Positions 228-31,310 of a stretch of DNA of 64,000 bases are shown piece after piece. The notes under the pieces are model-generated. The model ran no database searches. It saw only the letters and a list, made by a program, of their open reading frames with translations, and was not told the origin of the DNA. The stretch's first letter is position 1. Each line of letters opens with the position of its first letter. Made by a program: the position numbers and the translations under genes. This stretch comes from Chaetoderma sp. LZ-2023a (Eukaryota; Mollusca; Caudofoveata; Chaetodermatida; Chaetodermatidae), in contig CM067370.1 of assembly GCA_034401795.1 (NCBI GenBank), positions 106,346,387-106,410,386 on the forward strand, in the 5' to 3' direction.

Positions 228-239
228 TTCTCCTTCGAT

Positions 240-398
240 CAATACTCACCATTCTGTTACTTCTGATATACAGCTGGCCTTGACAGCGGCTCTAGGATTA
301 TAGACTTAGAAAGCTTTACCGACTCCTGGGAACCGGGTACTCGGCTCCCAACTGCCGAGTACCAGTTTACCATAGAGCTCATTCTTGTTTGCATAGCA
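240..398 (+). repeat. Left inverted terminal repeat, DIRS copy A
   Basis: This is the inverted complement of 7165-7321, from CAATACTCACC to TTGCATAGC, with few mismatches. It contains a small internal palindrome (GGTACTCGGC ... GCCGAGTACC, about 333-355). The outermost 12 bases (228-239) are unique to the left end. Confidence 0.9.
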
Positions 399-542
399 AC
401 AAGAGCAATACATGCTTTTTGCATTAAGGATTTTAGTGGTTTTTTTGTGAAACAAAAGATCTAAGTCTTTAATTTGTGATAGTTTGTGTGTTCGTGAAAG
501 GATTAACTAATGACTATGGAGCATACCGCTGAAGATAACCAG

Positions 543-1316
543 GTTGTATCGTTCTTTATTATCCATAGTTAAAAGACTTAGGTCTTCAAAATTTCGTCTG
601 TGTCGCATGTTCCAATTTCTGACCCCATAGAATCTGGGACGTGTGCTAACAACGATATATGCCAGACGATCGCCTTCTTTAAACCCCAACAGGCGAGATC
701 GGCAGATATGAAAATAGGTGTTTGCTACGGTATTTCTAACACGAATATCGGCTGACGTCATTCTCCGTAGAATCCGAGCGGGTGACGTCACACCCGGTCG
801 CTCGAATGTTTATGTGAAGAAAAATTTTTCATTAATTCGCGCATCTTGTTCTGGGTGCTGCGTACTAAAAATGGTACCAGAAACTTTAGAATGATCAAGT
901 TTACGTGCGATCACGATCGGTTTGCACTGATCGGTGGTTTCAAAATTCTTGAGTAGATGCGTGGTCTGCGGTTTTACCGTGTGATACAGCAGTTTGTTAT
1001 ACATTTTGTTGTTTTCTTCACATATCGTGATGATTTCGTTAGGAGTATAATTTATATTGATTAGTAAATATACCCCGAATGCTATGCGATATGATTCCTG
1101 GAGCCGTTGCACATCCTGGAGGATCTAATATGGGTGTGTTGATGCCCGCCGCGTTCTTGTCATCATAATCAATGCGATCGTTGTTGTAACGTGGCGGGGT
1201 GGGGTGCGGGGAGGTTACGGTTAATTTATGAGTCAAAATGAATTGAAAATTAATTGTCTGCCTTCCATCCGGGTCTCGTTCCGCTTGTTTATTGTAAGTT
1301 TGTGCTTATTTTATAG
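543..1316 (+). other. Candidate spliceosomal intron in DIRS ORF1, copy A
   Basis: The donor is CAG|GTTGTA after an ATG-initiated 9-codon exon. The acceptor is TTATTTTATAG|GCC, just before the Cys-rich start of ORF1. The TAG of the acceptor would stop translation if unspliced. The same donor, acceptor and phase recur in copies B (11688-12466) and C (24864-25631). Two CRE-like TGACGTCA octamers lie inside, at 753-760 and 783-790. Confidence 0.6.
753..790. promoter_or_regulatory. Paired TGACGTCA octamers
   Basis: Two perfect CRE/ATF-type palindromes lie 22 bases apart in the DIRS leader or intron. One of the two is kept in copy B (the first reads TGACGTCG there), and neither is perfect in copy C. 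A regulatory role is only a guess. The same octamer also recurs in an unrelated MITE family in this window. Confidence 0.25.
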
Positions 1317-3367
1317 GCCAAGCCAGCCCCGCCATCATGTGACGAATGCCATAAATTTGTCCATGTAATGTTCAAGGACCATGCTTGTTTTAGGTGTTCC
1401 CTGTGTAATATAGATCATAGGTGTAATGTTTGTGCAGTGTGGTCCGTCGAAATGATGGTTAAGTTCCTTGCCCAGAAGGACTTGGCTGGGTCTGACGCGG
1501 GGTCAGGTGGTCCGAGACGAAATCGTGGAGCGCCCGGTTCGTCCGGTGGGGGTGCTCCACGTCCCCAGCTGGAGGTGGCGGAGATGGCACTGCCGGCGTG
1601 GTTTGGTCCGGCTATGCAGGGTTTTCTGCATAGCGTTCTGCCCACGCTGGTGTCGTCCCTGCTACCAAAGGTTGGGGGGGGGAAAGTTTCTCCCCATGCC
1701 TGGTACGGATCCTGTCCTCGGACAGGATTCTGGACTGGTTACCGAGGGGGCCGTCTCGTACGGCCCCCTGGGGGTCCCGTCTGGCTTCGGCCAGACGGGT
1801 TCTGTCTCTCTGCGGCCACCTCCGGGTGGTCCAGTAGCGGTGGCCGGTCCGTCAGGTGTGGGAGCCGTCCGCTAGGACGGCTCCATGGTTGACTCATCTA
1901 GTGACGGCTCTTCGGAGTCTGAAGACGAGGAGGCCGAGGAGGAGAGGTTGCTGCGGCCCGTGAAGCCGCAGGTGGAGAATATGGAGGTTGATTCCGTCCT
2001 GGACGGAACCGGCCTCCATTTGTCTGGTTTGGCGCAAGCCAGGTCAGCGGCTCCGCCTGCGGCTGAGGCCAATACGTTACCGTGCACCGGTTCCGGGCGG
2101 CTTGGTTTGTCACCAGCCGTCACGGGAACGGGTGTGCCGGGCCAGGCGTGGTACTCACCTATCTCACCTATCTCGCCTGGTCCGGCAGCTGGACGTGGGG
2201 TGCCGTTGGCGCCCGTGTCCGGCTACGGTTCCGCGACTGTTACGGGTCCATACGGTTTTCCGTGCGGACCTACCCCATGGACCAGAGTGTTTCATGGGGT
2301 GGCGGCGGAACCGTGTGGTAGCGGAGTGCCTGGCGTGTCAGCCGTGGCTCCTTGCCGGGAGGCCGTGGCTGGCAGACCCGTGAGCACGTCAACGGGTGAC
2401 GTGTTTGCGGGGGTGTCTTCGTCGGAGGTAGATTGGTCGGATGCTCTGGCATGGCTAGCCAGGGTTGACCCATCTGTGGTTTCGGCCACGGCCGATGAAG
2501 ATGCGCCCCGTCCATCGGTTGCGTCGATTAGGACGGGGATTTTGCCCGCGGCCCGGATCCAGTCAGTGGGACTGGATCCACGGTTCATAGATTTGTTGGA
2601 TGCTATTTATAGCAAACAACTAATGACCAAGGGTCAGCTCCCTGCGGCCTCCAGGGAGGTGCGGGCAAGATGTCGTATTCTGCGGGGGGAATACGACAGG
2701 TATGGTGTAGTCCCGTCGGTCACGGAGGATGACCGATGGGTGTTGGGAGTCCAGAGTGCCGGGTCGGGTGGCCCCGCTCCGGCACTAGTGGATAAATCCC
2801 AAGTACACCAGGAAGAAGTCCTGTCCCTATGTGATGAGGGTGTGAGGGCAGCTATGAGTGCTGTCAACCACTCTTATCGTCTACTTCAGTCGGTGTGGGC
2901 TGAAGCAGGGGCAGGCCACCCTGTGCCATCTGTGGCACTTTCGGGCGTAAATGACGGCCTGGTGCTGTCTATGGACGCATTGGCAAGGGTGCAAGTGCGA
3001 GTGACTAAATCCAGGAGGCAAATGGTCATTGACCATATGCGTCCAGCTACGGCAGTCAGGGAGTGTCTTCTTGGGACGCCCCTGACAGGGCCTAGCATCT
3101 TCGGTGGCCAAGCGCGGGCCATCTTAGAGGACACCGCCAGTATCGCGCAAAATCGGTTAGCGGTAAACCTACAGCTAGAGCTAGTGCGGCAAGCGAACGC
3201 CCTAGGGGCTGTGGGGAAAGCGCTAACGGGACAGCCTTCAAAGAAGCAGAAGAAGCATAAGGGCAAGGCGAAAGCCAGGCCTGTTGCGACTTCTGCTTCA
3301 GCTGGGTTTTCAGAGCCGCCACCGGCGAAGAAGCCCAGGAAGGTTGTAGAGGCGCCTACCCTCCCCA

Positions 3368-5665
3368 ATGTTGCTCTTGACCGCCCTAGGGGCGGGAAGG
3401 GGAAGGGTAAGGCCTCAAAGGGCGGACAGAAGGGGCCGAAGCGTACCTGAGGGTACGAAAGCTCCCTTCATATCCGCCTGGACCGCGCCTGTGCGACAGG
3501 AACAGCGGTGCCAGTTATACCCATCGTCTAGAACGAAATGGTTCTCACTCTCTCTCGTTAAGAAAGGGGGGGGGGGGCGGACTGCGAGCCGGACAACCCC
3601 GTTAGACGTCGAGGCGTCTATGGTGGGTGGAAGGCTCATGCGTTTCGTCGAGGCCTGGCGAGGTGTGACGTCAGACAGTCTGGTCCTGGGATGGTTATCC
3701 CAGGGTTACATGCCGGAGTGGTGGGACTTTCCGCCACAAAATCTGTCTTTGGCACCTGTCTGGACACCCGTACCAAGGGAGCCAGACAAGTTAGAAGCCA
3801 TTCAAAAGAAAGTGTCGGGTTTGCTTCTGAAGGGAGCAATAAAACCAGCAAACCAAAACACTCCAGGCTTCTATTCAAACATGTTCCTTGTCCCCAAGAG
3901 CACAGGGGGATGGAGACCCATACTCAATCTCAGGCCATTAAATTGGTTTATCCATACGCCTCGGTTCCAGATGGAAACGCCAAGGTCGGTAATGGCGGGA
4001 TTGAGGAAAGGAATGTGGTGTGTATCGATCGATCTGAAAGATGCATATTTCCACATTCCTATGAATCGGAGTTGGCACAGGTTTCTGAGATTTGCGTTTC
4101 AGAATCAAGTATGGGAGTTTACAGTTCTCCCGTTCGGCCTGTCAACAGCTCCGAGGGTTTTCACAAGAGTGGTCCTTGCGGTGACAGCGTTTCTCAGAAA
4201 AGAGAACGTGGCGCTACACACCTACATAGACGACTGGCTGCTCAAGGCAGACTCGGCAGCCAGGTTGAACGTGGATACTGCTCTGACTCTGAAGTTACTT
4301 TCAGATCTAGGCTGGATAGTCAACGAGGAGAAATCCGAGTTGGCGCCCACTCAACATTTCGTTTATTTGGGGATGCGATTCGACCTCGAGGAGGGCAGGG
4401 TTTACCCGTCAGAGCCCAGAGTGGTGTCTCTGTTAGCCATCCTCAGGAGTTTTCGAGTGGGAAACCACATTCAGGCGAGGCGGTTCCTTCAGATGCTGGG
4501 CATGATGGTCTCCATGGAGCAGGTTATCCCGTACGCTGGTATAATGCGAAGGCCTATCCAGTTGTATCTGATGTCTCTGTGGAAACAGAGAACAGAACCC
4601 CTGTCAAAACTGGTGCCAGTTTTGGAGCCGATAATATCGCATCTTCTCTGGTGGAAACAGCGTCAGGATCTCCTATTAGGGGTTTCGCTGCACCTACCCC
4701 ACCCCCAGCTGTCCGTCTACACGGATGCATCGCTGGAAGGGTGGGGTGCCTGCCTGGGAGAACACCAGGTCTCGGGCACATGGACTCTCCCGGAGAGTCA
4801 GCTGCATATCAATCTGTTGGAAATGATGGCAGTGGAACTGGCGTTGGAAGAGTTCCTTCCGATGATCAGGGGCAAGGTGATATTGATACGGTCGGACAAT
4901 TCGACAGTAGTATCATATATAAATCGCCAAGGCGGGACCAGGTCGCCCACCCTGTGCATCAGGGTGTGGCACTTGATTCAATGGTGCAGGAATTACTCGG
5001 TTGTTTTGAAAGCAGCTCATATTCCTGGCCAATTGAACATTCTGGCGGATGCTTTGTCTCGCAGACAGAGAATCTTGCCAACAGAATGGTCCCTCAACCC
5101 TCCGGTTCTGCGACGGATCTTCGAGCATTGGGGCAAACCCAACATGGACTTGTTCGCCACAAAGGAAAATGCTCAAATCATGACATATGTCTCGCCGATT
5201 CCAAATCCAAATGCCGTCGATACAGACGCTCTGGCGATAAGCTGGAGAGGGATGCACGCTTACGCATACCCACCCACCATTCTTCTACTGAAGGTATTGG
5301 TGAAGGTCAGGGAGGAACCGTCTCTCGTCCTGCTAATAGCGCCGTATTGGCCGAGCAGGGCATGGTTCAGGGATCTTCTAGATCTGCTGGTGGAAAATCC
5401 TGTGCAGTTGCCCGAGATTCCGAACATAATCTCCCAGGCCAAGGGACGCTTCCTACATGAGCGTCCCGAAATGTTCAAATTGACTGCGTGGATGTTGTCA
5501 AACAACGTTCCACGTCGGAAGGCTTTTCTCGACAGGCTGCTGATTTCATCGCGGCTGCGAGAAGGAGGTCAACCTTCAAGTCATATAACAACAAGGTTAA
5601 CAGATTTGCAGACTGGTGTGAAGAAAAGGGTATTGATACCTTTCAATCCACTATTCAGCAAATAG
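3368..5665 (+). CDS. DIRS ORF2: reverse transcriptase-RNase H-methyltransferase-like, copy A
   Basis: A 765-residue polyprotein that copies element RNA into DNA. The RT core shows IDLKDAYFHIP (motif A, about 221-231), VLPFGLSTAP (motif B, about 253-262) and YIDD (286-289). RNase H follows with its four acidic positions: YTDAS (D453), NLLEMM (E485), RSDNS (D510) and ADALSR (D561). Residues 594-675 (DLFATKEN ... AYPPT ... LLIAPYWPS) look like the phage-type adenine methyltransferase-like domain known downstream of RNase H in DIRS elements, but the usual NPPY/DPPY is replaced by YPPT, so activity is doubtful. ATG at 3368 is kept in copy C and lost in copy B. It overlaps ORF1 (frame 1) by 83 bases and the recombinase frame by a long stretch. 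All RT and RNase H catalytic residues are intact. Confidence 0.93.
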   Translation: MLLLTALGAGRGRVRPQRADRRGRSVPEGTKAPFISAWTAPVRQEQRCQLYPSSRTKWFSLSLVKKGGGGRTASRTTPLDVEASMVGGRLMRFVEAWRGVTSDSLVLGWLSQGYMPEWWDFPPQNLSLAPVWTPVPREPDKLEAIQKKVSGLLLKGAIKPANQNTPGFYSNMFLVPKSTGGWRPILNLRPLNWFIHTPRFQMETPRSVMAGLRKGMWCVSIDLKDAYFHIPMNRSWHRFLRFAFQNQVWEFTVLPFGLSTAPRVFTRVVLAVTAFLRKENVALHTYIDDWLLKADSAARLNVDTALTLKLLSDLGWIVNEEKSELAPTQHFVYLGMRFDLEEGRVYPSEPRVVSLLAILRSFRVGNHIQARRFLQMLGMMVSMEQVIPYAGIMRRPIQLYLMSLWKQRTEPLSKLVPVLEPIISHLLWWKQRQDLLLGVSLHLPHPQLSVYTDASLEGWGACLGEHQVSGTWTLPESQLHINLLEMMAVELALEEFLPMIRGKVILIRSDNSTVVSYINRQGGTRSPTLCIRVWHLIQWCRNYSVVLKAAHIPGQLNILADALSRRQRILPTEWSLNPPVLRRIFEHWGKPNMDLFATKENAQIMTYVSPIPNPNAVDTDALAISWRGMHAYAYPPTILLLKVLVKVREEPSLVLLIAPYWPSRAWFRDLLDLLVENPVQLPEIPNIISQAKGRFLHERPEMFKLTAWMLSNNVPRRKAFLDRLLISSRLREGGQPSSHITTRLTDLQTGVKKRVLIPFNPLFSK
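3560..5457 (+). other. Long alternative open frame overlapping RT (possible N-extension of recombinase)
   Basis: Frame 1 has no stop from 3560 to 5457, about 632 codons, entirely inside ORF2 (frame 2). It is in phase with the recombinase ORF that follows and is separated from it in copy A only by TGA at 5458-5460. Copies B and C have CGA at that place, so the frame runs through into the recombinase there. The encoded peptide is Ser/Gly/Arg-rich with no domain I recognise. It could be a true dual-coding N-terminal extension or an open shadow frame caused by composition. Confidence 0.45.
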
Positions 5666-6507
5666 CAGACTTTCTCTGTGAGCTGTTCTTTTCAGGACTA
5701 GCTCCTGTCACAGTTGCTGGATACAAGTCAGCTTTGGCATCAGTTATCCCTTGTCTAACCAACAGGGATAATCCAGAAGTGGCCCAGTTGAATGTGATGG
5801 TGAAGGGAATGAGCAATCTCCGACCGAGACAACCGGTAGTCATTCCAGCCTGGAGTCTATCCTTAGTGCTTAATGTACTGGCCAAGCACCCTTTCGAACC
5901 ATTGCGTTCGGCTAGTCTAAAGCATTTGACTCTAAAGGCGGTCTTTCTATTGGCAGCTTCCTCAGCTAGAAGGCGCAGTGAGATCCATGCGCTTTCGGCA
6001 GAGAGGAACCGATTTATTGTTTCTGGAGAAGGTCTGCGTCTTCTGCCAAGAGCAGAGTTTATGTCAAAGAACCAATCTTTGAGATATCCCGGCAAACCGA
6101 TCATTATACCGAAGTTAACTAGGTTTGATCGTGATGCCAGTGTCTGGTGCCCGGTCCGTGCTTTGACTAAGTACAAGAAACGGACTGACTCGTTACGGTC
6201 GAATGATAGACATCTGTGGATCTGCCATAAAAAGCCTTATGGCGCCGCATCCATGGATACTATCTCTCGTTGGGTGGTCGAATGCATTCAGACTACTCAC
6301 GAGATGGCGACTGGGCACCAGGTACAGGGCGTAAGGGCACACGATGTCAGAGGAATAGCCGCCTCGACCGCCCTTTACAGTGGTGTTCCGTTAGAGGACA
6401 TCATGGCCGTTGCACAATGGCACTGTGAGTCCTCATTCACGGATTACTATATGAGGGATGTGTCAGACTCAGCCAATCCACTCGCTTTAGCTGTTTTGAA
6501 ACGATAG
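5461..6507 (+). CDS. DIRS tyrosine recombinase, copy A
   Basis: Site-specific recombinase expected to integrate the circular DNA form of the element in place of an integrase. The span given is the open frame after TGA at 5458-5460; no ATG lies near the start, and counting from GTG at 5488 gives 339 residues. An N-terminal SAM-like/core-binding part (FIAAARRRSTFKSYNNK ... WCEEKGID) is followed by the catalytic domain with Arg in SARRRSE (about 162), HDVR (His285, Arg288), QWH (Trp311/His312) and the Tyr nucleophile in FTDYYMRD (320 or 321). All of the R-H-R-H/W-Y set is present, so this copy could be active. It overlaps the end of ORF2 by about 200 bases in another frame. Translation may rely on a frameshift, reinitiation or the overlapping upstream frame. 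Confidence 0.9.
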   Translation, partial: ASRNVQIDCVDVVKQRSTSEGFSRQAADFIAAARRRSTFKSYNNKVNRFADWCEEKGIDTFQSTIQQIADFLCELFFSGLAPVTVAGYKSALASVIPCLTNRDNPEVAQLNVMVKGMSNLRPRQPVVIPAWSLSLVLNVLAKHPFEPLRSASLKHLTLKAVFLLAASSARRRSEIHALSAERNRFIVSGEGLRLLPRAEFMSKNQSLRYPGKPIIIPKLTRFDRDASVWCPVRALTKYKKRTDSLRSNDRHLWICHKKPYGAASMDTISRWVVECIQTTHEMATGHQVQGVRAHDVRGIAASTALYSGVPLEDIMAVAQWHCESSFTDYYMRDVSDSANPLALAVLKR

Positions 6508-7008
6508 TTAGTGACCACACTGCTTTTCCCCTTTTTTCACTTTGGTAAGAAAAGAATCTAAAGCAGGCATGGTCAGGCGAGAGGATGTCAACCAGATTGT
6601 GTCACTGATGGCCGAACCGGTGAATGGTTGGAGGCGGTATGTCTGAAGTCCTGTTATCATAAGGTAATTCAATAAGTGAGAGTTTTTTGTATTATGTATA
6701 TGTATCATGTTCATTCATTTTATATATTCATGCTCATTCCCAGGCTAATACATGGAATATGCAGGGAGTAGTTAACCCTCTTGGCATATTGGTGTTTTCA
6801 GGCGAGATACATGTTCGTTAGTTCTCTCCCTTTTCTTAGGAGGAAAAAGAGGGGGGGGGGCTGTGACGCGAATGTGATTCGGTTCCGTGAACTTGACGGT
6901 CCTTTTAGGTCTCCGTTAGTCAAGTTTGAAGTCTAAAATCTTTCTCCAAGGGGCAAAATTAGCATTTATGGCTTGCCCCTTCCCACCAGGTTACTGATCA
7001 AATCTGGT
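6508..7008 (+). other. DIRS 3' untranslated region, copy A
   Basis: This is a non-coding tail between the recombinase stop and the internal complementary region. It includes a G-run at about 6850-6860 after GGAGGAAAAAGA. The equivalent regions of B and C share variants (TTTCACCC, AACCTAAAG) that differ from A. Confidence 0.7.
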
Positions 7009-7110
7009 GTATATCAGAAGCAACAGAATGGTGAGTATTGATCGAAGGAGAATGTAGGAAATGTCAATTTCCCTTTCTCCGAGATCTAACAATACTCACC
7101 ATTCTGTTAC
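7009..7110 (+). repeat. Internal complementary region (ICR), DIRS copy A
   Basis: Two abutting segments: 7009-7052 is the reverse complement of the left element end (228-271), and 7053-7110 is the reverse complement of the right end (7301-7358). Together they store the circular junction of the two termini, the hallmark DIRS feature thought to template end completion and circle formation. Confidence 0.92.
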
Positions 7111-7164
7111 GGACCCAGCCTCCCAGCCCCACGGAGGCAAGCCATAGTTTTCTCTTGTTTGGTG

Positions 7165-7321
7165 GCTATGCAAACAATATGAGCTCTATGGTAAACGGGT
7201 ACTCGGCAGTGGGGAGCCGGGTACCCGGTTCCCAGGAGTCGGTAAAGCTTTCTAAGTCTATAATCCTAGAGCCGCTGTCAGGGCCAGCTGTATATCAGAG
7301 GTAACAGAATGGTGAGTATTG
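7165..7321 (-). repeat. Right inverted terminal repeat, DIRS copy A
   Basis: Inverted copy of 240-398. The right tip 7322-7358 (from TTAGATCTCGG to TTTCCTGCA) is unique to this end and is represented in the ICR. Confidence 0.9.
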
Positions 7322-8222
7322 TTAGATCTCGGAGAAAGGGAAATTGACATTTCCTGCAATCTCCGGCGAGTCACAGTTTTCAGTGCCCTATTGTCTGTAG
7401 TATGTTTAGCCCCATAATTTCACCTACATAGACTTGAGCCTTAATATACTAGGTATATTCCGAATCTAACAAATTCTAGATGAAATAATTTTATTAGGCA
7501 AAAATTGGCTTAAATGTTGGGTTTTTCGTGCTTTTCGGTGCCCTACTGTCTGTATGTAATATGGTCGGCTCAAGAACTTCGCTCGCATAGACGTAGAGGG
7601 ATTTGAATACGATAGTTATATTGGAAATTCGGCCGTGAAGTAATTTCGTAGTATACGATTTCATCCCGTAAATTCGTTTCAATTTTGGCAGATCTGCGGG
7701 TTTTCAATGCCCTACTATTATCTGTCTGCAATAGGTTTGGCCACATAATTTCACCGATATGGTTAGGTAGCGATATGAACACGCTAATGAATCTTGAGTT
7801 TTCTACCACGTAGTAATTTCGTAATATTCAATCTAGTAGCCACGGGCAGCTGTCAAATGCCAACGATTTACTATATTCGGTATCAGAATGTCTGTTCTCG
7901 ATTTGTAATAATTTTGTTTATATATGGATGTATATAACTCAATATGAGCTCTAGTGCTTTTGCACAATTCTACCATCAAGTAATCTCATCGTAGGTAGTT
8001 ACATATTCGCCGTATGACCCCATTATAATATGGTTGGTTCACATTCACCTCATTCAGATAGGTGTCCATATGTCCTGGCATATCGCTCATAATGGGTTCG
8101 GCACCAGAATGTCACCCATATGTTTAGATAGGTATAGGCATACGCTTACGGAGTAGTGAGATTTAAAACTATCTACCATGAAATAATTTCGGCTCAAATT
8201 TAGGCCGATTCATGGTTTTCGT

Positions 8223-11388: not shown

Positions 11389-11400
11389 TTCTCCTTCGAT

Positions 11401-11557
11401 CAATACTCACCATTCTATTACTCCTGATACAAGCTATCCTGAATAGCTGACCCTAGGACTATAGACTTAGTAAGCTTTACCGACTCATGGAACCGGGCAC
11501 TCGGCTCCGAACTGCCGAGTACCCGTTTGCCATGAAGCTCATTCTTGTTTGCATAGC
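11401..11557 (+). repeat. Left inverted terminal repeat, DIRS copy B
   Basis: Diverged inverted counterpart of 17838-17994, with many more mismatches than within A or C. This supports a recombinant origin of copy B. Confidence 0.85.
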
Positions 11558-11663
11558 AACAAGAGCTACATGCTTTTTGTGCAGTTGGAGTCTTAAGTTT
11601 CTAAGTCTTTTTCTGTGTATTTTGATAGCTTTGTGCGCTCTCTAAGGATTATATTAGATTACC

Positions 11664-14253
11664 ATGGAAGGAGCCGATGATAACCAGGTTGTATAATTCC
11701 ATGTCATTCCATAGTTAAAAGACTTAGGTCTTCAAAATTTCGTCTGTGTCGCATGTTCCAATTTCTGACCCCGAATCTGGGACGTGTGCTAACAACGAAA
11801 TATGCCAGATTGATCGCCTTCCTTTAACCCCAACAGGCGATCGGCAGATATGAAATAAGGTGTTGGCTTTACGGTGTTTTAACACGAAAATCGGCTGACG
11901 TCGTTCTCCGTAAGATCCGAGCGGGTGACGTCACACCCGTGTTGTCTCGGATTTTCATGTGAAGAAAATGTTTCATTAATTCGCGCATCTGATTCTGGGT
12001 GCTGCGTACTCTATTGGTACCAGAAAGACTTTGGAATTTTCAAGTTTTGCGTGTTATCACGATCTGTTTGCAATGATCGGTGGTTTCAAAATTCTTGATT
12101 TAGATGTGTGGTCTGCGGTTTTACCGTGTGCTACAGCAGTTTGTTTACATTTTGTTGTTTCTTCACATATCGTTTTGGCCTTAGTTTTGGAGTACAATTT
12201 ATATTGATTAGTAAATATACCCCGAATGCTATGCGATATGATTCCTGGTTCCGTTATACATCCTTGAGGATCAGTTTATGGGTGTATTATTGCCCGCTTA
12301 GTTCTTGTCGTCATAATCAATGGGATCTTTGCTGTAACGTTGCGGGGTGGGGTGCGGGAGGGAGGGTTAACATTTAATTTATGATCAAATTATTTGAAAA
12401 TTAATTGTCTGCCTTCCATTCCTGTTTCGTTCCGCTTGCTTATTGTAGGTTTGTGCTTATTTATAGGCCAAGCCAGCCCCGCCATCATGTGACGAGTGCC
12501 ATAAATTCATGAGGGTTCTATTAAAGGACCATGTTTGTTTCCGTTGCACCAAATGTAATCTTGACAGTAGGTGTAACGTTTGTGCAGTGTGGTCGTCCGA
12601 CATGATGGTCAAGTTCCTTGCCCAGAAGGACTTGGCAGGGTCTGACGCGGGGTCAGGCGGTAAGAAAGCAAATCGTGGAGCGTCCGTTTCGGCAACTGGA
12701 GGTTGTGGAGACGGCACCACCGGCGTGGTTTGGTCCTGCTATGCAAGGCTTCTTGCATAGCGTTCTGCCTATGCTGGTGTCGTCCCTGCTTCCAACAGTT
12801 GTAGGGCAGTCTCTTCCCGTGCTTGGTTCAGACCCTGTCCTTGGACAGGGTTCTGGACTGGCCACCAAGGGAGCCGTCTCATACGGCTCCCTGGCAGTCT
12901 CGTCGGGCTCTGGCCTGATGGGCTCTGTCTCTCTGCGGCCACCTCTGGGTGGTCCAGTAGTGGTGGCCGGTCCATCAGGCAGGGACGACACATCGGGGTC
13001 TGAAGACGAGGAGGCCGAGGAGAGATTGCTGTGGCCTGAGATGCCGTGGGTAGAGAGCATGGAGGTCGATTCCATCCTGGATGGAACCGTCCTCCATCTG
13101 TCTGGCTTGGCGCAAGCCAGGGCAGTGGCTCCTCCCATGATTGAGGCCACTCCGGTACCGGGCACTGGTCTCGTGATGGTTGGTTTGCCGCCAACCGACA
13201 CGGTCACAGGTGTGGCTGGCCAGGCGTGGTACTCACCTATCTCGCCTGGTCCAGTGGTCAGGCATGGGGTGCCGTTGGTGCCCGTGTTTGGCCACGGTTC
13301 TTCAACCGTTATGGGTCCACACGGTTTTCCGTGCAGGCTTACTCCATGGACTGGTGTTTTTCATGGAGTGGCAGCTGAACCGTACGGTACCGAAGTTCCT
13401 GGCATATCAGCAATGGCTCCTAGCTGGGAGGCCGTTGCTGGTAGGGCCGTGAACATGTCAACGGGTGACGTGTTCACGGGAGTGTCCTCCTCGGAGACAG
13501 ACTGGTCAGAGGCTCTGGCTTGGCTAGTCATGGTAGACCCGTCTGTGGTTTCGACCACGGCCGAAGAGGATGCACCCCGTCCATCGGTGGCATCGATTAG
13601 GACGGGGATCTTTCCCGCAGTCCAATAGACTGGATCCAAGGTTTATGGAGTTATTGGATGCTATTTATAGCAAACAACTCCTGACCAAGGGCTAGCTTCC
13701 TACGGCCTCCAGGTAGGTGCGGGAGAGGTGTCGTATCCCACGGGGGGGGGGGGATATGACAGATATGGTGTCGTCCCAACGGTCACCGAGGATGACCACT
13801 GGGTGCTGGGTGTCCAGAGTGCTGGAGCGGGTGGCCCCGCCCCAGCGCTGGTGGACAAGTCTCAGGTACACCATGACGAAGTCCTGTCCCTATGCGATGA
13901 GGGGGTGAGGGCGGGCCATCTTAGAAGACACTGCCAACATTGCGCAGAATCGGTTGGCGGTTAATCTACAGCTGGAGCTAGTACATCAGGGGCACGCACT
14001 AGGGGCTGTATCCTAGCTGCTAACCGGGCAGCCTTCTAAGACGCAGAAGAAGCACAAAAGCAAGGCGAAAGCTAAGCCTAGTGCTGCTTCTGCTTCTACT
14101 GGGTCTTCTCAGTCGCCTCTGGCGAAGAAGGCCAAGAAGGCTGTGGAGGCCCCTACCCTCCCCAATATTGCTCCTGATCGCCCGAGAGGCGGGAAGGGCA
14201 AGGGGAAGGGTAAGTCCTCTAAGGGCGGAAAGAATGGAGCGAATCGTACCTGA
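11664..14253 (+). pseudogene. DIRS ORF1 (Gag-like), copy B
   Basis: Exon 1 is 11664-11687 (M-E-G-A-D-D-N-Q, with a good ACCATGG start context), the candidate intron is 11688-12466, and exon 2 starts at 12467 with the Cys-rich CDECH ... CFRC ... CNVC head. Exon 1 is one codon shorter than in A and C, yet stays in frame. Lesions: about 26 bases are missing near 12690 (frameshift), TAG follows IFPAVQ near 13626, a G-run adds a shift near 13744, and about 266 bases are deleted near 13915 at a GGGC junction. Unlike A and C, it reads through the position of their G-tract frameshift. Confidence 0.75.
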
Positions 14254-16355
14254 GGGTACGAGGGCTCCCTTCGTATCTGCCTGGATCGCACCTGTACAAC
14301 AGGAACAGCGGTGCCAGTTAGACCGGCCAAGCCAAGACCAAAATGGTTCTCACTCTCTCTCGTCAAGATTAGGCGTCGATGCGTCTATAGTGGGTGGAAG
14401 GCTCATGTGTTTTGTTGAGGCTTGGCGAGGTGTGACGTCAGACAGTCTGGTCCTGGGATGGTTATTCCAGGGGTACATGCCGGAGTGGTGGGATTTTCCA
14501 CCACAGAATCTGTCTTTGGCACCTGTCTGGACACCCGTACCAAGGGAACCAGACAAGTTAGAAGCCATTCAAAACGAAGTGTCAGGTTTGCTTTTGAAGG
14601 GAGCAATAAAACCAGCAAACCGGAACACTCCAGGCTTCTATTCAAACATGTTCCTTGTCCCCAAGAGCACAGGTGGATGGAGACCCATACTCAATCTCAG
14701 GCCATTAAATTGGTTTATCCATACGCCTCGGTTTGAGATGGAAACTCCGAGGTCGGTAATGGCACGATTGAGGAAGGGAATGTGGTGTGTATCGATCGAT
14801 CTGAAAGATGCATATTTCCACATTCCAATGAACAGGGGTTGTCACAGGTTTCTGAGATTTGCGTTTCAGAATCAAGTGTGGGAGTTTGTAGTCCTCCCAT
14901 TTGGCCTGTCGACAACTCCACGGGGTTTCCTTGTGGTGACAGCGTTTCTCAGAAAAGAGAACGTGGCGCTTCACACATACATGGATGATTGGCTGATCAA
15001 AGCAGACACATCAGCCAGGTTAGAGGTGGATACTGCTCTGACTCTGAAGTTACTTTCAGATCTAGGCTGGATAGTCAACAAGGAGAAAGAGCCCAGAGTG
15101 GTGTCTCTGTTAGCCATCCTCAAGAGTTTTCGATTGGGAAACCACATTCAGGTGAGGCGGTTTCTTCAGATGCTGGGCATGATGGTCTCCATGGAGCAGG
15201 TTATCCCGTACGATGCTCTAATGCGAAGGCCTATCCAGTTGTATCTGATGTCTCTGTGGAAACAGAGAACAGAACCCCTGTCAAAGCTGGTGACAGTTTT
15301 GGAGCCGATAATGTCGCATCTTGTATGGTGGAAAAAGCGTCAGAATCTCCTATTAGGGGGTTTCGCTGCACGTACCCCACCCCCAGCTGTCCGTGTACAC
15401 GGATGCATCACTGGAGGGATGGGGGCGTGCCTGGGAGAACACCCGGTCTCGGGCACATGGACTCTCCAAGAGAGCCAGCTGCATATCAATCTGTTGCAAA
15501 TGATGGCAGTGGAACTGGCATTGGAAAGGTTTCTTCCAAAAGTCAGGGGCAAGGCGATATTGATACAGTCGGACAACTCGACAAGTATCATACATAAATC
15601 GCCAAGGCGGGACCAAGTCACCCACACTATGTATCAAAGTGTGGCACTTGATTCAATGGTGCAGGAATTACTCGGTTGTTTTGAAAGCAGCTCACATCCC
15701 TGGGCTATTGAACATTCTGGCAGATACTTTGTCTCGGAGACAGAGAATTCTGCCAACAGAATGGTCTCTCAACCCTCCAGTTCTTCACAGGATCTTTGAG
15801 CATTGGGGCAAACCCAACGTGGACTTGTTCGCCACAAAGGAAAATGCTCAAATCATGACTTATGTCTCGCCGATTCCAGATCCAAATGCCGTCGATACAG
15901 ACGCTCTGGCGATAAGCTGGAGAGGGATGCACGCTTATGCGTACCTACCCACCATTCTTCTGCCGAAGATATTGGTGAAGATCAGAGAGGAACCGTGTCT
16001 TGTCCTGCTAATAGTGCCATTTTATCCCAGCAGGGCGTGGTTCACGGATCTTCTAGTTCTGCTGGTGGACAATCCAGTGCAGTTACCCGAGATTCCGAAT
16101 ATAATCTCGCAGTCCAAGAGATGCTTCCTACACGAGCATCCCGAAATATTCAAATTGACTGTGTGGATGTTATCAAACAACGTTCCACGTCGGAAGGCTT
16201 TTCTCGACAGGCTGCGAATTTCATCGCGGCTGCGAGAAGGAGGTCAACCTTCAAGTCATATAACAACAAGGTTAACAGATTTGCAGACTGGTGTGAAGAA
16301 AAGGGTATTGATACCTTTCAATCCACTATCAGCAAATAGCAGACTTTCTCTGTGA
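14166..16355 (+). pseudogene. DIRS ORF2 (RT-RNase H), copy B
   Basis: The family start codon is ATT here (14166). RT motif A (IDLKDAYFHIP), motif B (LPFGLSTTP) and YMDD are visible. A 15-base deletion lies just after motif B near 14930, and a 78-base in-frame deletion near 15088 removes the segment between YMDD and the connection domain. RNase H is frameshifted, and the frame resumes near 15639 with the methyltransferase-like block (DLFATKEN, YLPPT, LLIVPFYPS). Not functional. Confidence 0.8.
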
Positions 16356-17181
16356 GCTGTTCTTTTGAGGACTAGCTCCCGTCACAGTTGCTGGATACAA
16401 GTCAGCTTTGGCATCAGTTATCCCTTGTCTAGCCAACAGGGATAATCCAGAAGTGGCCCAGTTGAATGTGATGGTGAAGGGAATGAGCAATCTCCGACCG
16501 AGACAACCGGTAGTCATTCCAGCCTGGAGTCTATCCTTAGTGCTTAATGTACTGGCCAAGCACCCTTTCGAACCATTGCGTTCGGCTAGTCTAAAGCATT
16601 TGACTCTACAGGCGGTTTTTCTATTGACAGCTTCCTCAGCTAGAAGGCGCAGTGAGATCCATGCACTTTCAGCAGAGAGGGACCGATTTATTGTCTCTGG
16701 AGAAGGTCTGCGTCTTCTGCCAAGAGCAGAGGTTATGTCAAAGAACAAATCTTTGAGATATCCCGGCAAACCGATCATTATACCGAAACTAACTAGGTTT
16801 GATCGTGATGCCAGTGTCTGGTGCCCAGTCCATGCTTTGACTAAGTACAAAAGACGGACAGACTCGTTACGGTCGAATGATAGACATCTGTGGATCTGCC
16901 ATAAGAAACCATATGGTGCTGCATCCATGGATTCTATCTCTCGTTGGGTAGTCGAATGCATTCAGACTACCCATGAGATTGCGACTGGGCACCAGGTGCA
17001 ATGCGCAAGGGCACACAATGTTAGAGGAATAGCCGCCTCGACCGCCCTTTACAATGGTGTTCCGTTATAGGACATCATGGCCATTGCACAATGGCACTGT
17101 GAGTCCTCATTCACGGATTACTATATGAGGGATGTGTCAGACTCAGCCAATCCACTCGCTTTAGCTGTTTTGAAACGATAG
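16163..17181 (+). pseudogene. DIRS tyrosine recombinase, copy B
   Basis: Same protein as in copy A. One T is deleted at about 16329, TGA lies at 16366-16368 in the original frame, and TAG at 17068-17070 replaces GAG (VPL-stop) between the HxxR motif and the Tyr. The HNVR motif and TDYY are still visible. All three lesions also occur in copy C. Confidence 0.85.
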
Positions 17182-17681
17182 TTAGTGACCACACTGCTTT
17201 TCACCCTTTTCTCACTTCGGTAAGAAAAGAACCTAAAGCAGGCATGGTCAGGCGAGAGGATGTCAACCAGATTGTGTCACTGATGGCCGAACCGGTGAAT
17301 GGTTGGAGGCGGTACGTCTGAAGTCCAATTATCATAAGGTAATTCAATAGTGAGAGTTTTTTGTATTATGGATATGTATCATGTTCATTCATCTTATATA
17401 TTCATGCTCATTCCCAGGCTAATACATGGAGTATGCAGGGAGCAGTTAACCCTCTTGGCATATTTGTGTTTTCAGGCGAGATACATGTTCGTTAGTTCTC
17501 TCCCTTTTCTTAGGAGGAAAAAGGGGGGGGGGACTGTGACGCGAATGTGATTCGGTTCCGTGAACTTGACGGTCCTTTTAGGTCTCCGTTAGTCAAGTTT
17601 GAAGTCTAAAATCTTTCTCCAAGGGGCAAAATTAGCATTTATGGCTTGCCCCTTCCCACCAGGTTACTGATCAAATCTGGT

Positions 17682-17783
17682 GTATATCAGAAGTAACAGA
17701 ATGGTGAGTATTGATCGAAGGAGAATGCAGGAAATGTCAATTTCCCTTTCTCCGAGATCTAACAATACTCACCATTCTGTTAC
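17682..17783 (+). repeat. Internal complementary region, DIRS copy B
   Basis: 17682-17725 complements a left tip of the A/C type. 17726-17783 complements the right end of copy B itself (to 18031). Confidence 0.88.
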
Positions 17784-17837
17784 GGACCCAGCCTCCCAGC
17801 CCCACGGAGGCAAGCCATAGTTTTCTCTTGTTTGGTG

Positions 17838-17994
17838 GCTATGCAAACAATATGAGCTCTATGGTAAACGGGTACTCGGCAGTTGGGAGCCGAGTACCCG
17901 GTTCCCAGGAGTCGGTAAAGCTTTCTAAGTCTATAATCCTAGAGCCGCTGTCAGGGCCAGCTGTATATCAGAAGTAACAGAATGGTGAGTATTG
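17838..17994 (-). repeat. Right inverted terminal repeat, DIRS copy B
   Basis: Nearly identical to the right ITR of copy A and much closer to it than to the left ITR of copy B. Confidence 0.88.
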
Positions 17995-18031
17995 TTAGAT
18001 CTCGGAGAAAGGGAAATTGACATTTCCTGCA

Positions 18032-18995
18032 TTCTCCAAAGGTTGTCATGTCACATATCATTTTCAAGACAATGATAAGTAGTCTACAGTACAAGGAATT
18101 ATTTTGATCTTGAGTCAAACTGAGGGTAGGGGGCGGGGTCAAAAGGTCAAAAGTGGGCACCAATCGATTGTAACGCAACTCCTCCTAGACCATTACACAT
18201 CCAAATATGTATCATGCTGATGGTTTTGAAAATGTTTCTTCTTTTTTCAGACTATGAACTTTGCTTATGTTTGGACCATTTGCCTTTCGGTTATCCCAGG
18301 GTGTCAGTTGTCATTAGAATGACTTCAGGTTACTCCTGTGAAGAAAGGTTTTATGGTTCAGTGTCCAAGCTATGCTTGCCCGATTGGTAGTACCATGGGT
18401 GTTTTGAATCGGCATGTTGATTGCAAAATTTCAAAATGAGACTGTATCCACTGGTCCATCACATCCTGTGATGTACAATTAATATACAGCACAGGTAAGC
18501 TATTTGCTATCTTCTGATAGCGTTTGTGGAATTTTGGTATGAGCCCACATTTCCCACCCTGGGGTGGGAAATGTGGGGTAAAAAATATAATTTTTTTCAA
18601 AGGTGGTCATGTCACATATCATTTTGAAGCCAATGATGAGTAGACTACAGCACAAGGAATTATTTTGATCTTGGGTCAAACTGAGGGTAGGGTGCGGAGT
18701 CAAAAGTGGGCACCAATCGATTGTAACGCAACTCCCAGACCATTTCACATAGAAACTTGAAACTTTCGGTATGATTACACATATGGCCAGGGATGTGCAT
18801 GACACATTGGCATTTTGATATCACCCCAGGGGCAGGGCTGGATGAAATAGTGGGCAGAAAATAAATTTTATCAAATGTGGTCATGTCACATATAATTTTG
18901 AAGCTTGTAGTTAGTAGACTACAGAACAACAAATTATTTTGTTCTTGAATCAAGCTGAGGGCATTGGCCAGGGGCCAAATGGGCAATCTAATTCT
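18032..18995. repeat. Three diverged tandem units (GTCATGTCACATATCATTTT family)
   Basis: Units start near 18042, 18604 and 18885 with GTCATGTCACATAT. They continue with TAGACTACAG, AATTATTTTGATCTTG and CAAACTGAGGG. The first two also share GGGCACCAATCGATTGTAACG. No coding potential. Copy B sits at the left edge of this array. Confidence 0.7.
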
Positions 18996-24480: not shown

Positions 24481-24572
24481 TTTGGCTGGATGATGGTGGT
24501 GTCTACGACAAGAACTTGCAGTGTTAGGTATTAACTATTTTACAGTCTACAAATTGCCAATTCTCCTTCGAT

Positions 24573-24730
24573 CAATACTCACCATTCTGTTACTTCTGAT
24601 ATACAGCTGGCCCTGACAGCGGCTCTATGATTATAGACTTAGAAAGCTTTACCGACTCCTGGGAACCGGGTACTCGGCTCCCAACTGCCGAGTACCCGTT
24701 TACCATAGAGCTCATTCTTGTTTGCATAGC
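24573..24730 (+). repeat. Left inverted terminal repeat, DIRS copy C
   Basis: Runs from CAATACTCACC to TTGCATAGC; the inverted partner is 31468-31693. Confidence 0.9.
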
Positions 24731-24836
24731 AACAAGAGCAATACATTCTTTTTGCATTAAGGATTTTAGTGTTTTAAATAATCTAAGTCTTTAATCAGTG
24801 ATAGTTTGTGTGTTCTGAAAGGATTAACTAAGGACT

Positions 24837-27754
24837 ATGGAGAATACCGCCCAAGACAACCAGGTTGTATTGTTCTTTATTATCCATAGTTAAAAGACTT
24901 AGGTCTCTAAATTTCGTTGTGTCGCATGTTCCAATTTCTGACCCCATAGAATCTGAGACGTGTGCTAACAACGATATATGCCAGACGATCGCCTTCTTTA
25001 ACCCCAACAGGCGATCGGCAGATATGAAAATAGGTGTTTGCTACGGTATTTCTAACACGAATATCGGCTGACGTCGTTCTCCGTAGAATCCGAGCGGGTG
25101 TCGTCACACCCGGTCGCTCGGATGTTTATGTGAAGAAAAATTTTTTCATTAATTCGCGCATCTTATTCTGGGTGCTGCGTACTAAAAATGGTATCGGAAA
25201 CTTTAGAATGATCAAGTTTACGTGCGATCACGATCGGTTTGCAATGATCGGTGGTTTCAAAATTCTTGAGTAGATGTGTGGTCTGCGGTTTTACCGTGTG
25301 AGACAGCAGTTTGTTATACATTTTGTTGTTTTCTTCACATATCGTGCTGCTTTCGTTAGGAGTATAATTTATATTGATTAGTAAATATACCCTGAATGCT
25401 ATGCGATATGATTCCTGGAGCCGTTACACATCCTGGAGGATCTATTATGGGTGTGTTGTGCCCGCCGCGTACTTGTCGTCATAATCAATGCGATCGTTGT
25501 TGTAACGTGGCGGGGTGGGGTGCGGGGAGGTTACGGTTAATTTATGAGTCAAAATATTTGAAAATTAATTGTCTGCCTTCCATCCGGGTCTCGTTCCGCT
25601 TGTTTATTGTAGGTTTGTGCTTATTTTATAGGCCAAGCCAGCCCCGCCATCATGTGACGACTGCCATAAGTTTGTCCGTGTAATGTTCAAGGACCATGTC
25701 TGTTTTAGGTGTGCCCTGTGTAATATAGATCATAGGTGTAATGTTTGTGCAGTGTGGTCCGTCGAAACGATGGTTAAGTTCCTTGCCCAGAAGGACTTGG
25801 CTGGGTCTGACGCGGGGTCAGGCGGTCCGAGAGGAAATCATGGAGCGCCCGGTTCGGCCGGTGGGGGTGCTCCACGTCCCCAGCTGGAGGTGGTGGAGAT
25901 GGCACCGCCGGCGTGGTTTGGTCCGGCTATGCAGGGTTTTCTGCATAGCGTTCTGCCCACGCTGGTGTCGTCCCTGCTACCAAAGGTTGGGGGCAGTTTC
26001 TCCCCATGCCTGGTACGGATCCTGTCCTCGGACAGGATTCTGGACTGGTTACCGAGGGGGCCGTCTCGTACGGCCCCCTGGCGGTCCCGTCTGGCTTCGG
26101 CCAGACGGGTTCTGTCTCTCTGCGGCCACCTCCGGGTGGTCCAGTAGCGGTGGCCGGTCCGTCAGGTGTGGGAGCCGTCCGCTCCACGGTTGACTCGTCT
26201 AGTGACGGCTCTTCGGAGTCTGAAGACGAGGAGGCCGAGGAGGAGAGGTTGCTGCGGCCCGTGAAGCCGCAGGTTGAGAATATGGAGGTTGATTCCGTCC
26301 TGGACGGAAGCGGCCTCCATTTGTCTGGTTTGGCGCAAGCCAGGTCAGCGGCTCCGCCTGCGGCTGAGGCCAATCCGTTACCTTTCACTGGTTCCGCGCG
26401 GCTTGGTTTGTCACAAGCCGCCAGGGGAACGGGTGTGCCGGGCCAGGCATGGTACTCACCTATCTCGCCTGGTCCGGCAGCCGGACGTGGGGTGCCGTTG
26501 GCGCCCGTGTCCGGCTATGGTTCCGCGACTGTTACGGGTCCGTACGGTTTTCCGTGCGGACCTACCCCATGGACCGGAGTGTTTCATGGGGTGGCGGCGG
26601 AACCGTGTGGTAGCGGAGTGCCTGGCGTATCAGCCGTGGCTCCTTGCCGGGAGGCCGTGGCTGGCAGACCCGTAAGCACGTCAACGGGTGACGTGTTTGC
26701 GGGGGTATCTTCTTCGGAGGTAGATTGGTCAGATGCTCTGGCGTGGCTAGCCAGAGTGGACCCGTCTGTGGTTTCGGCCACGGCCGATGAAGATGCGCCC
26801 CGTCCGTCGGTTGCGTCGATTAGGACGGGGACTTTGCCCGCGGCCCGGATCCAGTCAGTGGGACTGGATCCACGGTTCACTGATTTGTTGGATGCTATTT
26901 ATAGCAAACAACTAATGACCAAGGGTCAGCTCCCTGCGGCCTCCAGGGAGGTGCGGGCAAGGTGTCGTATTCCGCGGGGTGAATACGACAGGTATGGTGT
27001 AGTCCCGTCGGTCACGGAGGATGACCGATGGGTACTGGGCGTCCAGAGTGCCGGGTCGGGTGGTCCCGGTCCGGCACTAGTGGATAAGTCCCAGGTACAC
27101 CAGGAAGAAGTCCTGGCCCTATGCGATGAGGGTGTGAGGGCAACGATGAGCGCTGTCAATCACTCTTATCGTCTACTTCAGTCGGTGTGGGCTGAAGCGG
27201 GGGCAGGCCACCCTGTGCCACCTGTGGCGCTATCGTGCGTTAATGACGGCTTGGTGCTGTCAATGGACGCATTGGCAAGGGTGCAAGCGCGAGTGACGAA
27301 GTCCAGGAGGCAAATGGTCATTGACCATATGCGTCCGGCTACGGCAGTCAGGGAACGTCTTCTTGGGACGCCCATGACAGGGCCTAGCATCTTTGGTGGC
27401 CAAGCGCGGGCCATCTTAGAGGACACCGCCAGTATTGCGCAGAATCGGTTAGCGGTAAATCTACAGCTAGAGCTAGTGCGGAAAGCACACGCACTAGGGG
27501 CTGTGGGCAAACCGCTAACGGGACAGCCTTCAAAGAAACAGAAAAAGCATAAGAGCAAGGCGAAAGCCAGGCCTGTTGCGACTTCTGTTTCGGCTGGGTT
27601 CTCGGAGCCGCCGCCGGCGAACAAACCCAGGAAGGTTGTAGAGGCGCCTACCCTCCCCAATGTTGCTCCTGACCACCCTAGAGGTGGGAAGGGCAAGGGG
27701 AAGGGTAAGGGTAAGGCCTCAAAGGGCGGACAGATGGGGCCGAAGCGTACCTGA
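24837..27754 (+). pseudogene. DIRS ORF1 (Gag-like), copy C
   Basis: Exon 1 is 24837-24863 (M-E-N-T-A-Q-D-N-Q), the candidate intron is 24864-25631, and exon 2 starts at 25632 with the Cys-rich head. The frame shifts by -1 at the G5 tract near 25987. The second frame then runs open from before 26006 to 27754 with the acidic stretch, the Pro/Gly region and the Lys-rich tail. Copy C lacks the 9-base insertion that makes the TAG in copy A, so the G-tract shift is its only visible lesion. Confidence 0.78.
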
Positions 27755-29786
27755 GGGTACGCAAGCTCCCTTCATATCCGCCTGGACCGCACCTGTGCGA
27801 CAGGAACAGCGGTGCCAGTTATACCCGTCGTGCCTAGAACGAAATGGTTCTCACTCTCTCTCGTTAAATAAGAGGGGGGGGCGGACTGCGAGCCGGACAA
27901 CCCCGTTAGACGTCGAGGTGTCTATGGTGGGTGGAACGCTCATGCGTTTCGTCGAGGCCTGGCGAGGTGTGACGTCAGACAGTCTGGTACTGGGATGGTT
28001 ATCCCAGGGTTACATGCCGGAGTGGTGGGACTTTCCGCCACAAAATCTGTCTTTGGCACCTGTCTGGACACCCGTACCAAGGGAGCCAGACAAGTTAGAA
28101 GCCGTTCAAAAGGAAGTGTCGGGTTTGCTTCTGAAGGGAGCAATAAAACCAGCAAACCAGAACACTCCAGGCTTCTATTCAAACATGTTCCTTGTCCCCA
28201 AGAGCACGGGGGGATGGAGACCCATACTCAATCTCAGGCCATTAAATTGGTTTATCCATACGCCTCGGTTCCAGATGGAAACGCCGAGGTCGGTAATGGC
28301 GGGATTGAGGAAAGGAATGTGGTGTGTATTGATCGATCTGAAAGATGCATATTTCCACATTCCGATGAATCGGAGTTGGCACAGGTTTCTGAGATTTGCG
28401 TTTCAGAATCAAGTATGGGAGTTTACAGTTCTCCCGTTTGGCCTGTTGACAGCTCCGAGGGTTTTCACAAGAGTGGTCCTTGCGGTGACAGCGTTTCTCA
28501 GAAAAGAGAACGTGGCGCTACACACCTACATAGACGACTGGCTGCTCAAGGCAGACTCGGCAGCCAGGTTGAACGTGGATACTGCTCTGACTCTGAAGTT
28601 ACTTTCAGATCTAGGCTGGATAGTCAACGAGGAGAAATCCGAGTTGACGCCCACTCAACATTTCGTTTATTTGGGGATGCGATTCGACCTCGAGGAGGGC
28701 AGGGTTTACCCATCAGTGCCCAGAGTGGTGTCTCTGTTAGCCATCCTCAGGAGTTTTCGAGTGGGAAACCACATTCAGGCGAGGCGGTTCCTTCAGATGC
28801 TGGGCATGATGGTCTCCATGGAGCAGGTTATCCCGTACGCTGCTCTAATGCGAAGGCCTATCCAGTTGTATCTGATGTCTCTGTGGAAACAGAGAACAGA
28901 ATCCCTGTCAAAACTGGTGCCAGTTTTGGAGCCAATAATATCGCATCTTCTATGGTGGAAACAGCGTCAGAATCTCCTATTAGGGGTTTCGCTGCACCTA
29001 CCCCACCCCCAGCTGTCCGTCTACACGGATGCATCGCTGGAAGGGTGGGGTGCCTGCCTGGGAGAACACCAGGTCTCGGGCACATGGACTCTCCCGGAGA
29101 GTCAGCTGCATATCAATCTGTTGGAAATGATGGCAGTGGAACTGGCGTTGGAAGAGTTTCTTCCGATGATCAGGGGCAAGGTGATATTGATATGGTCGGT
29201 CAATTCGACAGTAGTATCATATATAAATCGCCAAGGCGGGACCAGGTCGCCCACTCTGTGTATCAGGGTGTGGCACTTGATTCAATGGTGCAGGAATTAC
29301 TCGGTTGTTTTGAAAGCAGCTCGTATTCCTGGCCGATTGAACATTCTGGCGGATGCTTTGTCTCGCAGACAGAGAATCCTGCCAACAGAATGGTCCCTCA
29401 ACCCTCCAGTTCTGCGACGGATCTTCGAGCATTGGGGCAAACCCAACGTGGACTTGTTCGCCACAAAGGAAAATGCTCAAATCATGACATATGTCTCGCC
29501 GATTACAGATCCAAATGCCGTCGATACAGACGCTCTGGCGATAAGCTGGAGAGGGATGCACGCTTACGCGTACCCACCCACCATTCTTCTACCGAAGGTA
29601 TTGGTGAAGGTCAGGGAGGAACCGTGTCTGGTCCTGCTAATAGCGCCGTATTGGCCGAGCAGGGCGTGGTTCACGGATCTTCTAGATCTGCTGGTGGAAA
29701 ATCCTGTGCAGTTGCCCGCGATTCCGAACATAATCTCCCAGGCCAAGGGACGCTTCCTACACGAGCGTCCCGAAATGTTCAATTGA
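27660..29786 (+). pseudogene. DIRS ORF2 (RT-RNase H-methyltransferase-like), copy C
   Basis: 708 residues, starting at the same ATG as copy A. RT motifs IDLKDAYFHIP, LPFGLLTAP and YIDD are present. In RNase H, the third acidic residue is replaced: RSDNS in copy A is WSVNS here (Asp to Val), which should abolish RNase H. One A is missing near 29780 (TTCAATTG for TTCAAATTG), which ends the frame at MFN and fuses the overlapping frame to the ORF2 tail instead. The methyltransferase-like block is present (DLFATKEN, AYPPT, LLIAPYWPS). Confidence 0.85.
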
Positions 29787-29790
29787 CTGC

Positions 29791-30809: not shown

Positions 30810-31310
30810 TTAGTGACCACACTGCTTTTCACCCTTTTCTCACTTTGGTAAGAAAAGAACCTAAAGCAGGCATGGTCAGGCGAGAGGATGTCAACCAGAT
30901 TGTGTCACCGATGGCCGAACCGGTGAATGGTTGGAGGCGGTACGTCTGAAGTCCAATTATCATAAGGTAATTCAATAAGTGAGAGTTTTTTGTATTATGT
31001 ATATGTATCATGTTCATTCATCTTATATATTCATGCTCATTCCCAGGCTAATACTTGGAATATGCAGGGAGTAGTTAACCCTCTTGGCATATTTGTGTTT
31101 TCAGGCGAGATACATGTTCGTTAGTTCTCTCCATTTTCTTAGGAGGAAAAAGGGGGGGGGGGCTGTGACGCGAATGTGATTCGGTTCCGTGAACTTGACG
31201 GTCCTTTTAGGTCTCCGTTAGTCAAGTTTGAAGTCTAAAATCTTTCTCCAAGGGGCAAAATTAGCATTTATGGCTTGCCCCTTCCCACCAGGTTACTGAT
31301 CAAATCTGGT

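Follow-up and report, generated by a model that had tools for sequence, protein, structure and literature searches.

The locus described here raises the question of how the first open reading frame of a retrotransposon is translated when it has no conserved start codon of its own. In a 64-kb stretch of the genome of the mollusc Chaetoderma sp. LZ-2023a (the window; host genome 2.44 Gb), we found three copies of a DIRS1-like element whose ORF1 (Gag-like) begins at an acceptor-like site and whose probable start ATG lies on a tiny open frame far upstream. We consider it likely, with a probability of roughly two in three, that ORF1 is a two-exon gene whose AUG would be joined to it by splicing, while unspliced RNA would serve as the template.

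Comparison of the window with itself (blastn) detected three related elements, A, B and C, all on the plus strand (Table 1). The elements have inverted terminal repeats and internal complementary regions; in A, the latter comprise a region near its right end (228-272 versus 7052-7008, 97.8%) and a second complementary pair (7047-7110 versus 7364-7301, 96.9%). Copy B is a mosaic, with ~80-84% identity to A until ~15088 and 94.6% thereafter. At the right end of C (31352-31733), a 140-base terminal stretch occurs in two inverted copies. A fourth copy, D (locus L031), lies immediately left of the window and has the same layout, with the micro-exon MENTADENQ; it is interrupted inside ORF1 at the start of A (1-230; L031:4370-6230), and the self-comparison found no continuation of D within the window.

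Table 1. Positions in the window of the three DIRS1-like copies and their predicted parts.
Feature	Positions	Strand	Basis or remark
DIRS1-like element copy A	228..7364 (right end ~7364)	+	blastn self-comparison; inverted repeats
Left inverted terminal repeat of A	228..408	+	240-408 and 7149-7321 reverse-complementary, 92.5%
Micro-exon 1 of A, MEHTAEDNQ	516..542	+	sequence
Putative intron of A, GTTGTA...TTTTATAG	543..1316 (774 nt; acceptor 1317)	+	sequence, conservation
Two TGACGTCA sites in intron of A	753..790	+	sequence
Exon 2 of A, ORF1 (Gag-like)	1317..3450	+	frame change near 1680
RT / RNase H (weak Dam-like match)	3350..5665	+	PF00078, PF17917, PF05869 in A
Tyrosine recombinase ORF	5461..6507	+	PF02899 N-terminal SAM-like domain
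Copy B	11389..18037	+	diverged subfamily in 5' half, A-like in 3' part
Micro-exon 1 of B, MEGADDNQ	11664..11687	+	sequence
Putative intron of B	11688..12466 (779 nt; acceptor 12467)	+	sequence
Exon 2 start of B	12467..13628	+	frame broken
Copy C	24561..31733 (end ~31733)	+	96% identity to A; right end rearranged
Micro-exon 1 of C, MENTAQDNQ	24837..24863	+	sequence
Putative intron of C	24864..25631 (768 nt; acceptor 25632)	+	sequence
Exon 2 (ORF1) of C	25632..27754	+	frame broken

The reverse transcriptase (PF00078) was detected above the cut-off in all three copies (1.3e-22 in A, 4e-22 in C and 2.2e-15 in B). The RNase H match (PF17917, cut-off 24.8 bits) falls just under the cut-off in A (2.8e-05, 24.6 bits) and lower in C (19.3 bits), with no match in B, and the methyltransferase (PF05869) stays below the cut-off (E 0.012 in A and 0.029 in C); a search of the host genome with the PF05869 profile gave no match, so it revealed no further DIRS families. 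The recombinase is represented in A by its N-terminal domain only (PF02899, 8.1e-05, 23.3 bits, cut-off 22.3), and at E 0.1 the profile search listed no catalytic integrase domain. The first 112 codons of the recombinase ORF are without methionine, with the SAM-like domain at residues 32-96; this frame therefore also needs another start route (frameshift, re-initiation or splicing). No LAP2alpha-type Gag domain (PF11560) was matched in ORF1 in the window or in the host genome; since 14 control genomes were likewise without a match, its absence from the genome is not established. Searches with the RT region detected no relatives in phages (protein query from the RT-region frame) or in viral contigs (RT-region fragment as query). 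The assignment of A, B and C to the DIRS1-like elements is supported by these sequence features, although catalytic recombinase and methyltransferase domains remain putative. Their terminal and internal repeats, RT, near-threshold RNase H match and recombinase SAM-like domain fit the anatomy given in the available text of PMC3266345, and the DIRS1-like elements of vertebrates and others likewise have inverted terminal repeats, internal complementary regions, an ORF1, and regions corresponding to the RT, the putative RNase H and the putative recombinase.

The CpG observed/expected ratio is 0.55-0.98 across 4-kb blocks of the window, a range that points to an invertebrate host. Outside the three copies, we found a tandem array with a 151-base period (19536-20288; copies 68-93% like the reference), an endonuclease-like match below the cut-off (46392-47381) and, above its cut-off, a zinc knuckle (51307-51753); we take 46392-51753 to be LINE-like remains. 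On the minus strand, 59702-60229 encodes TNP-like RNase H and GTP-binding insertion domains, as in P-element/THAP9-type transposases.

The earlier note described an ATG with 7-8 further codons, CAG/GTTGTA and, 768-779 bases on, TATAG/GCC; its coordinates and its three peptides are exact in A, B and C. An additional in-frame ATG is present in A at 510, and the leader upstream of the micro-exon has other ATGs (one in A, one in D and three in B), which would matter only if transcription begins upstream of them. That length changes are whole codons rests on a single such difference among the window copies, but frame and length are kept genome-wide. The pattern ATGGAN{6,36}AACCAGGTTGTA, covering micro-exon and donor, matches 6241 places in the genome and its reversed form 3, so the layout is more than chance. 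One hundred matches were listed, all from contig C1 and within its first 48 Mb. Three of these are nested inside another, so the total of 6241 includes ~3% double hits. Among the matches listed, the distance from ATG to donor is 24 or 27 bases at 96 of 97 distinct sites. Because the pattern requires ATGGA and the donor, it is uninformative on copies that have lost them.

We therefore also rely on 61 aligned copies chosen by their acceptor (A, B and C of the window, L002-L031, and L033-L061 minus L060, which was omitted as it has no acceptor match). Disruption of the exon-1 frame in other copies had been named beforehand as grounds for giving up the two-exon reading; the frame runs from an in-frame ATG to the donor without a stop in 59 of the 61. 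The copies share ancestry, so such counts are not independent events. The earlier note also proposed selection on a coding exon, and the frame kept in nearly all copies agrees with this, but third-position changes are in excess in exon 2 and not in exon 1. Variable exon-1 columns number 3/1/4 and 3/3/4 by codon position, and the 25 exon-1 haplotypes listed are short and mostly acidic, again with no such excess. Start, frame and length of exon 1 are thus kept, and selection on its residues cannot be claimed.

Downstream of the acceptor, ORF1 is broken in all three window copies, which alone therefore cannot show that the frame matters. DNA searches with the A region (40 matches; best 40 of 4614 candidates scored) and the B region (42 matches; best 40 of 4948 candidates scored) supplied 30 loci each for reading; as these are the best-scoring places only, both sets are biased towards sequences closely related to A and B. 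From the acceptor, each of the 29 A-type loci (L002-L030) reads on in frame 0 for at least 94 codons; six of them have no stop throughout the 568 codons fetched, and another has none for 563 codons. Sharing 97-98% identity with A, these loci provide little independent evidence. Where B-type loci have both donor and acceptor, the open stretch of frame 0 measures 1 to 323 codons; these decayed copies are older and damaged.

The claim that the Cys-rich region has no start codon when unspliced holds, with an in-frame TAG immediately before GCC and the first methionine only at codon 15-18 in the window copies. A, C and L063 have their first in-frame methionine past the acceptor at codon 18 and B at codon 15; L062, L066 and L068 have none before codon 46. 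The methionine at codon 18 is missing in B, D, L062, L066 and L068, and codon 16 of exon 2 is a stop in D. In eight copies from several subfamilies (L067 was excluded because of an early frameshift), codons 1-15 of exon 2 have 4/3/11 variable columns and 39/21/119 pair differences by codon position. This start of exon 2 is protein-constrained and has no conserved methionine, which places the start of translation upstream or at a non-AUG codon. The ORF1 codons after the acceptor look translated, and their start probably lies upstream; splicing would be the simplest route to it.

The donor GTTGTA is exact in 60 of the 61 aligned copies, the other having one deletion, with zero substitutions. Such invariance is shared by only 8 of 742 hexamers in the intron, or 8 of 431 once those near CpG are set aside. 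GTTGTA deviates from the standard donor at positions +3 to +6 and scores -3.7 on a human matrix, compared with 8.6 for CAG/GTAAGT; among all GT dinucleotides of the window, it ranks at the 64th percentile. By the same human matrix, the acceptor ranks first in its region in both A and C, and equal second in B (99th percentile of the window). The aligned copies were selected by the acceptor, so its conservation is partly built in. Seven outlying copies were added: L062, a 92% relative of B, and L063-L068 from the micro-exon pattern list, in which the donor is present by choice as the pattern requires it. The acceptor is present in five of the seven; L064 is interrupted by another copy, and L065 has internal intron deletions with the coding side kept and an acceptor not matched by the pattern used. 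Copies that differ by as much as 18% in the intron and 26% over the opening 300 bases of exon 2 retain both splice sites; weak as the donor is, the two sites would join Gag in frame across subfamilies. Joining of the micro-exon to the RT or recombinase ORF was also considered and rejected, as A, B and C share no acceptor scoring at least 4.5 near the starts of these ORFs.

The weak donor is what one would expect if ORF1 were instead translated from unspliced RNA, beginning at a non-AUG codon or at an internal entry site past the TAG, with the upstream ATG heading a short regulatory ORF. We regard this as unlikely: it leaves unexplained why GTTGTA is strictly kept at the end of the upstream frame, why that frame measures 24 or 27 bases in 96 of 97 listed sites, and why a top-scoring acceptor falls exactly at the start of the ORF1 frame. 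The pairing of a strong acceptor with a weak donor could also mean that the acceptor takes another 5' exon, either a trans-spliced leader or a host exon upstream of the insertion, and the available text of PMC4495291 infers that a co-opted DIRS1-like gag probably brought a splice acceptor with it. We give this very little credence, as it would make an in-frame, length-constrained micro-exon with an invariant donor superfluous, and no Rfam family reached threshold in the 64-kb window.

The two-exon reading gains a further element from the intron, which outconserves its flanking exons, an unusual feature absent from the earlier note. When gaps are ignored, conservation of the intron exceeds that of the initial 300 bases of exon 2 in all 28 pairs of eight sequences. 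Majority bases of subfamilies A and B differ at 10.6% of intron positions (78/735), compared with 22.6% of exon-2 third positions (26/115), 41.8% of the leader (38/91) and 37.0% of exon 1 (10/27); the intron difference of copies A and B is 11.6% (88/757), versus 28% at fourfold sites of ORF1 (59/212). Leader and exon 1 (409-542 and the B equivalents) differ by ~40% between A and B, and the terminal repeat before them and the intron after them by ~11%; they appear as a fast-changing island between conserved repeat and intron. Intersubfamily recombination could account for part of the intron conservation, B being a mosaic. Conservation of such an island, with variable exons on either side, nevertheless argues that the intron itself has a function; it may carry a cis-signal. 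The intron of A folds with low predicted energy as a single sequence (z -3.3, 20 shuffles). A conserved RNA fold gains no support from covariation across nine sequences, in which the covariation term is +1.96 and double changes occur at 9 of 224 pairs. Translation of unspliced ORF1 would be favoured by a conserved 774-nt stretch of such low folding energy, though the fold lacks covariation support.

The window contains 14 TGACGTCA sites, which we take to be CRE-like, compared with 0.81 expected. Four of them lie within 70 bases at 33538-33605. The sites in the intron, together with its conservation above the exons, would suit an internal promoter for Gag mRNA, the micro-exon then being a remnant or part of another RNA; however, only 3 of the 14 sites fall within the three introns, the two intron sites of A are both altered in C, several other copies have changes in one or both of them, and an RNA begun there would still have no conserved AUG ahead of the Cys-rich codons. 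We consider such a promoter very improbable.

The two-exon reading suggests the following course of events, in which we infer the splicing itself, its incompleteness, the choice of template and the intron signal from the sequence. The left terminal repeat would drive a full-length RNA. In part of this RNA, the spliceosome would link the micro-exon, made up of the AUG and 7-8 largely acidic codons with Asn-Gln at the end, to the Cys-rich domain in phase 0, giving the Gag mRNA. Reading of unspliced RNA from the micro-exon AUG ends after 18 codons in A and 10 in B, and such a short peptide means that no Gag comes from this AUG without splicing. The weak donor would keep splicing incomplete, and the unspliced RNA would act as template for the DNA copy; a signal that marks or protects this unspliced form probably resides in the conserved intron. 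More tentatively, and with the odds against it, the intron could be a genome label for export, packaging or reverse transcription, with Gag strictly splice-dependent and the weak donor sorting the transcripts.

That only unspliced RNA can be the template, as the earlier note argued, agrees with the lack of intron-less copies but follows from it no better than the absence of splicing does. The spliced 38-base junction, with up to 3 mismatches, occurs at 0 places in the genome, versus 6241 unspliced donor places, in a search without a positive control; this fits either spliced RNA that is not reverse-transcribed or no splicing, and to that extent favours translation of unspliced ORF1. Alternatively, splicing could be real and the intron persist through DNA copied from antisense or otherwise unspliceable RNA and not through regulated retention. 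We see only a slim chance of this, for which there are precedents: in the available parts of the sources, both inverted terminal repeats of Dictyostelium DIRS-1 are promoters, the right one held to drive antisense RNA (PMC4482531), and an antisense template is proposed for Penelope elements (PMC3846280).

A spliced Gag mRNA derived from a two-exon gene would have partial parallels. In copia and BARE1, a facultative intron yields spliced Gag RNA alongside full-length RNA; as far as the available text of PMC3735527 goes, splicing removes pol in copia and a 104-nt stretch in BARE1, so that only Gag is made. In contrast to both, the DIRS1-like element described here would gain its Gag start codon by splicing. 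In simple retroviruses, splice choice splits the RNA between genome and mRNA, and packaging signals usually lie between donor and gag. Retroviral Gag is made from unspliced RNA, whereas Gag here would come from spliced RNA. Penelope-like elements, in which introns were reportedly described by Arkhipova in 2003, likewise retain a spliceosomal intron in genomic copies, but have another kind of RT and integration. A copy of Pen5 in Adineta has its intron inside the ORF, according to the available text of PMC3846280. Spliced Gag mRNA is thus known in retrotransposons; a Gag start codon on a separate micro-exon may be new.

We found no account of an intron in a DIRS ORF1 in the open literature, a scope outside which the founding Goodwin and Poulter papers fall. 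The words 'intron' and 'splic' are absent from the main text of the overview PMC3266345 and of the Xenopus study PMC9210276, and no DIRS ORF1 intron is described in the available portions of these two or of PMC3212892, PMC12477816, PMC6431247, PMC3846280, PMC4482531 and PMC3735527. The Xenopus DIRS families have a LAP2alpha domain in ORF1, by the accessible text of PMC9210276, and ORF1 here has no such match. A DIRS1-like gag was co-opted as the LAP2alpha exon of TMPO and ZNF451 (PMC4495291, available text), a study that also detected LAP2alpha-like gag in soft-shell and painted turtle, anole and coelacanth. That exon and ORF1 here both stand behind a splice acceptor, an acceptor-like site being native here, but by profile they belong to different Gag families.

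How one retrotransposon RNA can be both mRNA and template is an old question, and here a single splice event would separate the two roles. The family offers thousands of copies and several subfamilies for comparison. For ORF1 proteins of this kind, ORF finders that require an ATG will put the start in the wrong place. The acceptor may be a possible source of the one inferred for DIRS gag co-option in the available text of PMC4495291. If the intron did act as a genome label, the sorting of template from Gag mRNA would be the mirror image of that in retroviruses, and a ready-made acceptor would account for the two occasions, TMPO and ZNF451, on which DIRS gag turned into a host exon.
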